64,000 nucleotides of DNA from Betaproteobacteria bacterium (GTDB lineage Bacteria > Pseudomonadota > Gammaproteobacteria > Burkholderiales > Burkholderiaceae_C). The translations under genes and the position numbers were made by a program. Where the stretch lies: assembly GCA_025356445.1 (NCBI GenBank), contig JANXSZ010000023.1:1-64000 (forward strand). The letters are read 5' to 3'. Positions 4,979-36,347 of this stretch are shown one piece after another; the first letter of the stretch is position 1; each line of letters starts with the position of its first letter. The notes under the pieces were generated by a model. The model did no database searches and was not told the origin of the DNA. It saw only the letters and a list, made by a program, of their open reading frames with translations.

Positions 4979-5047
4979 ACTGGCAGCTATTGATTTAATA
5001 GCTGCCAGTGCCCATCTGTATTGCTCTAGCGCTTCATTCGCTTCAGT
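4979..5047. repeat. Dispersed palindromic repeat (full intergenic copy)
   Basis: CTGGCAGCTATT-gattt-AATAGCTGCCAG is a perfect 12-bp inverted repeat, followed by a CTCTAGCGCTTC segment. It lies between the convergent decarboxylase and fabI genes and could also act as a bidirectional transcription barrier. It is the clearest copy of a repeat family whose shorter relatives lie inside several genes here. Confidence 0.75.
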
Positions 5048-9937: not shown

Positions 9938-11514
9938 CTTTGCTGAACGTCCAAGACCTGAGCGTCAAGTTTGGTGACAAAACGGTGGTGAACCGTATCA
10001 GCTTCAGCCTGGAAGCCGGGGAGCGGCTGGCTTTGGTGGGTGAGTCGGGTTCGGGCAAGACGATCACCGCGCTCAGCCTGCTGGGGCTGGTACAAAATGC
10101 TCAAACCAGCGGCCAGTGCATGTTCAATGGGCGTGACCTGCTATCACTTTCGGAGCGTGACCTGCGTGCTGTGCGGGGGCAAGACATCGCGATGATTTTT
10201 CAGGAGCCCATGACGGCACTGAACCCGCTGTTCACGATTGGCGATCAAATTGCTGAGGTTTTGCAGCTCAAACAGGCGCTGTCGCCCAAGCAGTCGGCGT
10301 TAGCAGCTATCGAGTTAATAGCAAGCACCGGTATCCCCGAGCCTGCACGCCGTGCGCAGAGCTACCCGCATCAGCTGAGCGGTGGTCAGCGCCAGCGCGC
10401 CATGATTGCGATGGCGCTGGCCTGCAAACCCAAACTGTTGTTGGCCGATGAGCCGACAACCGCCTTGGACGTGAGTTTGCGGCGGGGCATTCTGGCGCTG
10501 TTGGCTGATGTGCAGCGCCAGCACAACATGGCGGTGCTCATCATCACGCATGATTTGAATTTGGTGCGCTATTTTGCGCAGCGCGTGGCGGTCATGGAGC
10601 AAGGCCATATCGTCGAACAAGGGGCTGTGGCGTCGGTGTTTTCTGACCCGCAGCACCCGTACACCCACAAGCTGCTGGACAGCCGTCCGCAGCGTGATGT
10701 GGTGGCGGTGAGCCAGCAGGTTGCTGTGCCGGTACTGAGCGCCGACATGCTGCGCGTGGGTTATCCCGTACCGCTGGCTGGCCTGAAGGGGTGGTTCAAA
10801 AAAGGCGAGTTTGTGGCGCTGAAGGGGGCGTCTTTCCAGTTACCTGCAGGCCAGACTTTGGGGGTGATCGGTGAATCGGGTTCAGGCAAATCTACGCTGG
10901 CTTTAGCTGCGCTGGGGTTGGTGCCGTTCAGGGGAGGGCTTTCTGTCAATGGTCAGCCCTGGGGGCGGGATGCTGCGGCCAACAAGGCTTTGCGTCGGCA
11001 ATTGCAAGTCGTGTTTCAAGACCCGTTTTCATCGCTTTCGCCGCGCATGACGGTGGAAGACATCGTGGGCGAGGGTTTACGTGTGCATGAACCCGCCAGT
11101 ACGGCCGCAACACGGCAAGCTTTAGTGGTGCAAGCTTTGGCCGATGTGGGCATGGACGTGAACAGTTACCCCGGTCTGCTGCAACGCTATCCGCATGAGT
11201 TCTCTGGCGGGCAGCGTCAGCGCTTGGCGATTGCACGGGCACTGATTATTCAGCCTCAAACGCTGGTGCTGGACGAGCCCACCAGCGCGTTGGACGTGAC
11301 CATTCAGCACCAGGTTTTGCAATTGCTTCAGCGTTTGCAGCGTGAGCGGGGTTTGAGTTATCTGTTGATTACCCACGATGTGGATGTGATCCGTGCCATG
11401 GCGCACCATGTCATCGTGATGCAGAACGGTGAGATTGTGGAATCTGGCCCGGTTGCTGCACTTTTTGCTGCGCCGCAGCATCCGTACACGCAAAGCCTGC
11501 TGCAAGCCGCTTGA
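9934..11514 (+). CDS. yejF: Peptide ABC transporter ATPase YejF (two fused ABC domains)
   Basis: 526 residues with two complete ABC cassettes. The first has Walker A GESGSGKT, signature LSGGQRQR and Walker B LLLADEPT; the second has GESGSGKS, FSGGQRQR and LVLDEPT. It energises YejB/YejE. The start at ATG 9934 overlaps the yejE stop (ATGA); a frame extension upstream lies inside yejE and is not needed. A short segment at 10302-10326 (protein AAIELIAS) matches the dispersed repeat family. Confidence 0.95.
   Translation: MTLLNVQDLSVKFGDKTVVNRISFSLEAGERLALVGESGSGKTITALSLLGLVQNAQTSGQCMFNGRDLLSLSERDLRAVRGQDIAMIFQEPMTALNPLFTIGDQIAEVLQLKQALSPKQSALAAIELIASTGIPEPARRAQSYPHQLSGGQRQRAMIAMALACKPKLLLADEPTTALDVSLRRGILALLADVQRQHNMAVLIITHDLNLVRYFAQRVAVMEQGHIVEQGAVASVFSDPQHPYTHKLLDSRPQRDVVAVSQQVAVPVLSADMLRVGYPVPLAGLKGWFKKGEFVALKGASFQLPAGQTLGVIGESGSGKSTLALAALGLVPFRGGLSVNGQPWGRDAAANKALRRQLQVVFQDPFSSLSPRMTVEDIVGEGLRVHEPASTAATRQALVVQALADVGMDVNSYPGLLQRYPHEFSGGQRQRLAIARALIIQPQTLVLDEPTSALDVTIQHQVLQLLQRLQRERGLSYLLITHDVDVIRAMAHHVIVMQNGEIVESGPVAALFAAPQHPYTQSLLQAA
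10302..10326. repeat. Repeat-family copy inside yejF
   Basis: AGCTATCGAGTTAATAGC resembles the core of the intergenic copy at 4979 (AGCTATTGATTTAATAGC, 2 differences). It sits in frame in the linker after the first ABC domain's Q-loop region. Low-frequency codons and an unusual AT content set it off from the flanking gene. Confidence 0.5.
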
Positions 11515-21173: not shown

Positions 21174-22320
21174 TGCCCTGAATACGGTAATGATGGAAGT
21201 CCAAGGGCGTATGGGCTTGGTGACGCTGAACCGACCTAAAGCCCTGAACGCTTTGAGTCTGGACATGGTGCGTCAGCTGACTGCCGGTTTGCTGGCGTGG
21301 CGGGATGATCCCCAAGTTCTTGCCGTTGCTGTTCGTGGCATGGGCAAAGGTGGTGATAGCGATCCTGCGGGGCAGCCTTTCGATGCATTTTGTGCCGGGG
21401 GTGATATCCGCTTTTTTCACCAGGCAGCGCTTGCAGGCGATCCGGCACTGGAGGATTTCTTCACTGAGGAATACACCCTCAACCACCTGATTCATACCTA
21501 CCCCAAGCCGTTCATGGCAGTGATGGATGGCATTGTGATGGGCGGAGGCATGGGCATTGCGCAAGGGGCTAGCTTGCGCATCGTGACCGAGCGCACCAAG
21601 ATGGCGATGCCTGAGACGAACATTGGTTTGTTCCCTGATGTGGGGGGCGGCTATTTTCTAAGCCGTGCGCCCGGCCGAATTGGCGAGTACCTGGGTCTTA
21701 CAGGCAGCGTTATTACGGGGCGCCAGGCGGTGGCCTGGGGCTTGGCCGATGGCTACGTCGAATCTCAGCAGTTGGCCAATATCTGGGCCAAGATCGCCAG
21801 TTCACCGTTTGAAACGGGTGACGCCGCCGAGCACTGGTTTGCTACACAATTCATAGCTGATCATGCCCGCAAGCCAAGCGCAAGAGGGCAAATTGATGCT
21901 GTTTTTGGGCTGGACACCGTTTCAGCGATGCTGCAAGCGCTGGACGCGATAGCCGCGCAAACTGACGAGGGCTTGGCCACCAGCTGCACCGGCCCAACTT
22001 GGGCATGTGCGACGGCCAGCGTGCTGCGCCAACGCAGTCCGTTGATGCTGCATGTGGTGCTGGAGCATATCCGTCGTGCCCGCCACATGGGTTTGGCTGA
22101 TGATTTGCGCATGGAGCGTGGCATCGTGCGCCACTGCTTTCACCATCGTCCCGGCGTAGCCAGTGAGACGGTGGAGGGCATCCGTGCACTTGCGGTGGAC
22201 AAAGACCACACGCCCAAGTGGAATCCAGCGCAGATCGAGGCGGTAACACCCGAGATGGTGGCCCCGTTTTTTAACAGCCCTTGGCCTGCGCACGCACACC
22301 CGTTGCGCCATCTGGGCTAA
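21166..22320 (+). CDS. Enoyl-CoA hydratase/isomerase family protein, 3-hydroxyisobutyryl-CoA hydrolase-like
   Basis: 384 residues from ATG 21166, preceded by GGAGAC. The crotonase fold is clear: FDAFCAGGDIRFFHQ (first oxyanion loop), MDGIVMGGGMGIAQGAS (second) and PETNIGLFPDVGGGYFLSR. Length and the long C-terminal half fit the HIBCH branch, which hydrolyses 3-hydroxyisobutyryl-CoA in valine breakdown; other crotonase activities are not excluded. The stretch ATQFIADHARKPSARGQIDA is encoded by a 60-bp repeat-like sequence (21841-21900), which may be an insertion. A strong terminator follows. Confidence 0.88.
   Translation: MADALNTVMMEVQGRMGLVTLNRPKALNALSLDMVRQLTAGLLAWRDDPQVLAVAVRGMGKGGDSDPAGQPFDAFCAGGDIRFFHQAALAGDPALEDFFTEEYTLNHLIHTYPKPFMAVMDGIVMGGGMGIAQGASLRIVTERTKMAMPETNIGLFPDVGGGYFLSRAPGRIGEYLGLTGSVITGRQAVAWGLADGYVESQQLANIWAKIASSPFETGDAAEHWFATQFIADHARKPSARGQIDAVFGLDTVSAMLQALDAIAAQTDEGLATSCTGPTWACATASVLRQRSPLMLHVVLEHIRRARHMGLADDLRMERGIVRHCFHHRPGVASETVEGIRALAVDKDHTPKWNPAQIEAVTPEMVAPFFNSPWPAHAHPLRHLG
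21841..21900. repeat. Repeat-family copy inside the hydratase gene
   Basis: GCTACACAATTCATAGCTG, then AAGCCAAGCGCAAGAGG and CAAATTGATGCT, follow the layout of the longer family copies: AT-rich core, GCGC-containing middle, AT-rich end. It is read through in frame for 20 codons. Confidence 0.5.
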
Positions 22321-35366: not shown

Positions 35367-36347
35367 TCAGGGTGAGGTGTGGCTGCCATGGGCATCGCCA
35401 TAGCGTTCGCGCCATGCGGCAACGCCCCAGGCCAGCTGGTCGCTGACGGTATGGTTGGCTTCTGGCTCTTGCCCCAGGCCCAGGGTGTGCAGCGCAGCTG
35501 ACAGTGCTCGCTCAGGGGTGTGCACCTCTACCGCAGCAGCCCCGTTTTGCTTGGACAGTTTTTCGCCATTCGTCCCCAGCACCAGCGGTGTGTGGAGGTA
35601 CAGCGGGGTGGGTAAGCCCAGTGCGCGTTGCAGCAGGATTTGGCGGGCGGTGTTGTCGGCCAAATCTTCGCCACGCACGATGTGGGTGATGTGCTGGTCA
35701 GCATCGTCCACCACCACGGCGAGTTGGTAAGCCCACAGGCCATCAGCTCTTTGGAGCACGAAGTCGCCTGCATCGCTCGCTACGTCTTGGCTTTGAGGCC
35801 CGAGGCGGCGGTCATGCCAGTGCAGTATTGCTACAGTTTCAAGAGCTTCTAAAGCGCATCCAGATTGCACTGGAGGCCTATTTTCTTCAAAATTAACCAC
35901 TTTAAAACGCCAAGCCCGTGCGGGGCGACCTTGCAGGCCGTGGCGGCAGGTGCCGGGGTAAATCAGCTCAGCGTGGCGCTGGTGTGCAATGCCCTGCGCC
36001 GCCAACGCGTTGGCAATGTCTTTGCGCGAGCAGGCGCAGCCATAGGTCTGGTGGGTGGCAATGAGATGGTCCAGCGCAGCCTGGTAATGCTGGCCGCGTT
36101 GTGACTGGCCGACCGGGGTTTCATCGGGCACCAAGCCGCATGCCGCCAGCTGATGAAGGACAGTTTGCGCCGCACCGGGGATGCAGCGTGGCGTGTCCAC
36201 ATCTTCGATGCGCACCAGCCAGCGCCCGCCGTGCGCACGGGCATCCAACCAGCTGGCCAAGGCTGCCACCAGTGAGCCCGCATGCAGCGGGCCGGTGGGG
36301 GAGGGCGCAAAGCGGCCTGTGTAAGCTGTATAAGCCGTGCGAGCGAT
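35367..36347 (-). CDS. gluQ: Glutamyl-Q tRNA(Asp) synthetase, with unusual start and insertion
   Basis: The conserved N terminus [18 protein letters not shown] (HIGH-like HAG) is encoded upstream of the first canonical start (GTG 36269), and the only codons between it and the stop at 36353 are non-canonical; ATC at 36347, 1 bp beyond the upstream gene's TAA, is the best guess, giving 326 residues. Zinc ligands are in GCACSRKD and YPGTCRHG, and the KMSKS-like motif is KLSKQNG. About 20 extra residues ([19 protein letters not shown]) replace the usual short link before HWHDRRLG and are encoded by a repeat copy. The enzyme attaches glutamate to queuosine in tRNA-Asp. Confidence 0.82.
35828..35893. 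repeat. Repeat-family copy inside gluQ (66 bp, in frame)
   Basis: On the coding strand the order is AATTTTGAAGAAAATAGGCC, TCCAGTGCAATCTGG, ATGCGC, then TTAGAAGCTCTTGAAACTG and TAGCAA. It has the AT-rich ends and central GCGC arms of the longer family copies. It supplies about 20 codons that GluQ proteins normally lack. Confidence 0.6.

Follow-up and report, generated by a model that had tools for sequence, protein, structure and literature searches.

The gluQ locus and its insert

The window, that is, the whole 64,000-nucleotide stretch analysed here from contig JANXSZ010000023.1 of a betaproteobacterium, carries on its minus strand a gene for glutamyl-Q tRNA(Asp) synthetase whose reading frame runs through a copy of a short dispersed repeat (Table 1). 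NCBIfam model NF004313 calls this ORF GluQRS (405 bits vs. a cut-off of 380), and TIGR03838 also scores above its cut-off. The AlphaFold2 model of the protein (mean pLDDT 86.8) resembles E. coli GluQRS and glutamyl-tRNA synthetases in fold. Its TM-score against 4a91 is 0.86 by target length, this entry being second by E-value in the structure comparison, behind a glutamyl-tRNA synthetase. The likeliest start, judging from the reading frame, is an ATC at 36347-36345, located just beyond the stop of an upstream FAD-oxidoreductase-like ORF. Between the upstream in-frame TGA and a 12-residue motif of gluQ there is no ATG, GTG, or TTG, and the GTG at 36269 falls downstream of that motif. A search of Rfam around gluQ reports nothing close to a gathering score, and a known RNA family at this gene was set aside on that ground.

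Table 1. Features of the gluQ locus and the basis of their assignment
Feature	Position	Strand	Basis
gluQ, glutamyl-Q tRNA(Asp) synthetase	35367..36347	-	NCBIfam NF004313 and TIGR03838; PDB relatives 1nzj/4a91
Copy of the dispersed repeat	35828..35894	+ (model orientation, antisense to gluQ)	Model R1, positions 2-68 of 69; blastn
22 gluQ codons from the repeat	35829..35894	-	Comparison with insert-free GluQ; residues 152-173 (ATC at 36347 = 1)

The first-pass annotation of this DNA had proposed a repeat-derived insertion of about 20 residues at 35828-35893, where GluQ proteins usually have a short link. Alignment of GluQ sequences bears this out: the linker between AWRF and HWHDRR counts 37 residues in the window protein, clearly longer than in most insert-free relatives, in the majority of which the equivalent segment ([AST]-x-R to W.DR) spans 17-27 residues. 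Longer insert-free linkers exist (33 residues in L113 and about 37 in L097), neither of which resembles the repeat. In 38 of 60 insert-bearing relatives the linker counts 39 residues; the net gain is ~20-22 residues, 22 codons being the standard case. The 19 extra residues originally listed are thus real but slightly too few, while the proposed coordinates agree to within one base with the blastn relatives and the model match. As for the described AT-rich ends and GCGC arms, the ends hold, but the arms read GCGC vs. GCAC on the plus strand by eye, and arm sequences of the repeat vary between genera. In the AlphaFold2 model the insert forms a loop in which residues 155-161 and 165-171 have pLDDT values below 50, and this loop is predicted to be disordered.

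A dispersed repeat in hundreds of copies

Sixty-two aligned linkers of 36-47 residues were collected, from which L139 and L140, no longer repeat-like, were left out; of the remaining 60 inserts, 56, each from a different species of the family and including that of the window, form alignment A1, from which the sequence-only model R1 was built. The genome of the window holds at least 150 R1 matches, 149 of those listed having E≤0.0035, and the copy in gluQ (35.8 bits) ranks seventh among the 150 matches listed. Blastn of positions 35820-35900 within the same genome reports a best relative of 84% identity over 45 nt (E 1.5e-7), a second of 78% over 54 nt (E 1.2e-5), and weaker ones besides. At E≤0.01, 400-kb samples contain 62 (G189), 32 (G163), and 90 (G310) matches, and 464 kb of the window genome contain 46. 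Scaled from these four samples, there would be roughly 350-1,100 copies per genome, which are upper-side figures, with some loci entering once per strand and weak matches taken in.

The repeat is ~66 bp long with sharp ends, TTTGCTAT and CTTGAAA. The wording of its genomic copies differs between genera, and we refer to these variants as dialects. Seven dialect consensuses contain 0 to 4 open frames each, which rules out a repeat with just two open frames, and the predicted folds of the repeat also differ between dialects. No strongly conserved bases were found beside the copies in seven genomes (32-90 copies per genome), and a target motif was therefore rejected as an insertion signature. Fourteen plasmid records match one copy from genome G140; a phage origin was discarded, as none of 50,697 phage records matched this same copy.

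R1 matches at E≤0.001 occur in 17 of the 399 genomes of the order that were searched. Nine of these belong to the family of the window, two having no more than 3 and 4 matches, and eight lie outside it, with 1-2 matches each. By these searches the repeat appears largely restricted to the family. Within a single genus code, G176 has no detectable matches and G377 has at least 150, a contrast more in line with lineage-specific bursts than with a single ancestral repeat population.

The window holds further R1 matches (E≤0.01) at 4986-5045, 10102-10156, 10259-10324, and 21838-21897, the second and the fourth being weak. Three of the four sit in open frames: by eye, the copies at 10102 and 10259 fall in an ABC-transporter ATPase gene and the one at 21838 in an enoyl-CoA hydratase-like gene. 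In four genomes (L332 6543, L345 6535, L324 6532, and L308 6514), gluQ is followed ~3.1 kb downstream by another copy, perhaps a further orthologous site.

Insert state follows repeat content

From the 399 genomes of the order, 59 members of the family were selected according to their linker state and searched with R1 (E≤0.01, stricter search filters). All 29 insert-bearing genomes have at least 82 matches. Among the 30 insert-lacking ones, 20 have none, six have one, and the others have 6 (G288), 8 (G394), 77 (G129), and at least 86 (G161), so that 28 of the 30 hold 0-8 matches. Chance is a poor explanation, because 20 of the 30 insert-lacking genomes are without any match. The repeat origin put forward in the first-pass annotation is upheld here: insert-bearing GluQ was seen exclusively in repeat-rich genomes (29/29 searched), and the same residues did not turn up in distant genera devoid of the repeat. 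That first reading was real but understated, the insert recurring in many Comamonadaceae, the family to which the window genome probably belongs, judging from its nearest named relatives.

Eighty named loci give a similar picture, several of their species having also trained R1, so that this set is not fully independent: R1 matches 54 of 57 long linkers and none of 20 short ones, three being unparsed (77 usable GluQ, of which 65 were taken into the structure alignment). Long linkers (≥37 residues) are found in Acidovorax (11/11), Polaromonas (18/19), Rhodoferax (5/6), Extensimonas (3/3), and Curvibacter (2/2), and short ones in Ramlibacter (7/8), Caenimonas (2/2), and Hydrogenophaga (2/3). As far as sequence comparison can tell, the insert is the usual state among the repeat-bearing relatives examined, at a single position and phase.

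The insert-lacking genome G129, a Comamonadaceae MAG, holds an unrelated dispersed repeat in the same GluQ linker, which reads HPEPVEG (L352 3361-3444, L092); elsewhere in that genome this second repeat gives 28 matches, about 19-41 nt long. On a GluQ tree computed by a quick method without the linker, with insert states assigned by eye, 15 changes of state are counted when unclear rows are left aside and 17 when they are taken as lacking; the tree omits 9 of 110 GluQ whose linker could not be delimited, and a further four rows are unclear in state. Well-supported branches force 4-5 changes, gain being indistinguishable from loss.

One coding site with little apparent protein constraint

The repeat is read antisense in gluQ in every case seen. 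The 60 inserts start at an identical nucleotide offset from the AWR codon in 56 cases and share their phase in all 60; among the named loci, orientation and phase are common to 54 of 54, and the offset to 43 of 54. For the 14 closest pairs, codon positions 1/2/3 of the insert diverge by 0.156/0.091/0.149 and those of the flanks by 0.034/0.025/0.150; for 55 pairs, the values are 0.345/0.311/0.369 and 0.093/0.088/0.263, respectively. While the flanks display the usual excess at position three, the insert shows roughly equal divergence at all three, which suggests that selection on the encoded protein is weak or absent. A weak constraint may exist, since position 2 lies below positions 1 and 3 in the closest bin. 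Near-equal divergence and predicted disorder together make the residues look tolerated rather than used, and a protein function for the loop is disfavoured on the same grounds.

The nucleotide sequence of the insert is nevertheless distinctive. Its GC3 is 0.34 vs. 0.85 for the rest of the gene and is the lower of the two in 60 of 60 genes; one of its alanine codons is GCT in 60 of 60, GCT representing 5% of alanine codons elsewhere; and AGC columns are conserved in all 60 rows. Were the insert neutral and of the same age as the family, such a composition would not be expected, unless renewal or nucleotide-level constraint had maintained it.

Covariation of hairpin pairs, looked for as a trace of an RNA role, does not exceed shuffles in the GluQ inserts and is not clearly above shuffles within genomes G310, G261, and G377. 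The nearest signal is that of G310, in which 39 of 500 shuffles reach the observed count of two-sided changes. An RNA function of single copies was therefore rejected, and the repeat is read as selfish or passive instead of as a regulatory RNA.

The insert mostly fits the dialect of its genome

Dialect profiles were made from genomic copies of seven genomes, GluQ copies excluded. Four profiles come from all matches of a sample and three from the loci of the 30 best matches; matches shorter than 50 letters or near-identical to the GluQ insert were dropped, and L040 is without a score. In 7/7 cases the GluQ insert scores best under the profile of its own genome as compared with the other six, and this preference persists (7/7) when composition is corrected for and when only the variable centre is scored. 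Twelve further congeneric inserts fit their own dialect best in eight cases, L047, L070, L051, and L046 fitting that of another genus better. The mean identity of an insert to paralogous copies of its own genome is 0.57-0.69, vs. 0.49-0.56 when it is compared with the inserts in GluQ of the six remaining genomes. Ranked by fit to their own dialect, GluQ copies come 1st of 37, 2nd of 33, and 6th of 81 in three score-blind samples and 26th of 44 in the fourth; in the three top-match samples they rank 33-36 of 35-39.

Such a fit to the own dialect is what concerted evolution or renewed insertion would leave behind. Since the GluQ insert shifts in sequence with the dialect of the genome that carries it, a single simple insertion event does not seem to account for it. 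With an identity of only 0.57-0.69, insert and paralogues would offer ordinary gene conversion a poor substrate.

Copies in other genes

In the four samples, 17/60, 17/31, 25/87, and 17/45 copies lie in frames that stay open over 150 nt to either side, GC3 being ≥0.6 in both flanks; these counts come without a shuffled control and surely include some spurious ORFs and one locus twice, and the 17/45 comprises the GluQ copy. In-frame copies occur in the genes of GluQ, DXR, AroA, and the CCA-adding enzyme. In DXR of G310 (L244 6467-6530) the copy, whose GC3 is as low (0.3) as is typical of the repeat, aligns gap-free to E. coli DXR. This length neutrality suggests a replacement; an insertion followed by a deletion would look identical. 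The copy in AroA of the same genome adds 7 residues relative to a solved structure, and that in the CCA-adding enzyme of the window genome coincides with gaps of 3 and 5 residues in the nearest structure.

Pfam family DUF1010 (PF06231) names a translated ORF and is no description of the present repeat. Two partial repeat copies lie in two DUF1010-annotated ORFs of an E. coli plasmid, beside integron cassettes (L470 295-342 and 1498-1539), and in family genomes R1 matches overlap with three DUF1010 hits. The GluQ of the window scores below the family threshold and its genome is without a DUF1010 match. DUF1010 may be partly a translated repeat.

Comparison with known repeat families

No account of the repeat was found among open-licence PMC papers. 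PMC2229807 describes the Rickettsia palindromic elements (RPE) as elements of 105-146 bp with terminal inverted repeats, present between genes and, apparently tolerated, in frame in unrelated conserved proteins. Compared with that description, the present repeat is likewise short, dispersed, and in frame in several unrelated conserved proteins. In contrast to the RPE as portrayed there, it measures ~66 bp, is devoid of a terminal inverted repeat (in four consensuses, the ends agree at 4-6 of 20 positions), occurs in hundreds of copies in Comamonadaceae, and occupies one orthologous coding site at which it follows the dialect of each genome.

Some REPs lie within genes according to PMC3733652, and the present repeat resembles them in being small, abundant, and partly in genes. 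It differs from the REP elements that bear GTAG/CGTC tags and are linked to RAYT transposases in having no terminal GTAG or CGTC in seven genomes. A RAYT-like gene is present in 58 of 59 genomes (23 above cut-off), in both the repeat-bearing and the repeat-free groups, and with such a gene near-universal, its presence was dropped as a discriminator. With MITE-like repeats (Correia/NEMIS, ERIC), the present one shares a non-autonomous nature and some open frames fused to host ORFs; unlike them, it displays neither a terminal inverted repeat nor a target-site duplication, the latter being not above shuffled pairings among 196 near-full copies (lengths 3-9, floating boundary).

Origin of the insert

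The reading that we favour, with a probability of roughly 0.6, is that a selfish coding repeat is tolerated at an old site in gluQ, where copies from elsewhere in the genome rewrite or refill it. A non-autonomous repeat of ~66 bp would have entered gluQ a single time, early in the history of the family; alternatively, this site would be unusually receptive. The encoded surface loop, probably disordered and without a catalytic role, would be tolerated, and the insert would have been lost several times since. Between genus-level splits, the gluQ copy would have been overwritten or refilled from genomic copies, which amounts to concerted evolution. More tentatively, and with the odds against it, an active element might overwrite resident copies, those in genes included, with its current dialect; the GluQ loop would then be rewritten periodically and copies of the DXR type would be length-neutral.

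The own-dialect match could also arise if the repeat had re-entered a preferred or uniquely permissive gluQ site in each lineage, in the dialect of the time. The interleaving of presence and absence on the GluQ tree, the patchy repeat content inside one genus code, and the unrelated dispersed repeat in the same linker of G129 point the same way. However, such independent insertions would have had to hit the exact offset in 56 of 60 cases and the same phase and orientation in 60 of 60, though several dialects open other frames, and the absence of conserved target bases in the seven genomes with 32-90 copies each offers them no guide; we regard them as unlikely. One position, phase, and orientation, together with conserved nucleotide columns such as the AGC in 60/60 rows, would instead be expected from a single ancient insertion that descended vertically and was kept for a useful loop or RNA. 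This history sits badly with codon positions that diverge about equally, a loop predicted to be disordered, interleaved absence on the tree, and hairpin pairs of GluQ copies without covariation beyond shuffles, and dialect tracking is unexpected under independent descent, which leaves it improbable. Finally, insert-free linkers, mostly of 17-27 residues, do reach about 37, as they would if the extra residues were chance or ordinary length variation without any repeat origin; yet a model made from GluQ inserts returns at least 82 matches in 29/29 insert-bearing genomes and none in 20/30 insert-lacking ones, and this explanation is hardly credible.

Implications

Coding repeats in conserved proteins are best known from Rickettsia. 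Here such a repeat reaches hundreds of copies in betaproteobacterial genomes, and one orthologous coding site allows comparison among many genera, some having it and others not. With this comparable coding site, both the spread of a repeat without visible transposon hallmarks and the renewal of in-gene copies from a genomic pool become testable by comparison. The repeat is also a warning for annotation, as some domains, DUF1010 for example, may partly be translated repeat.
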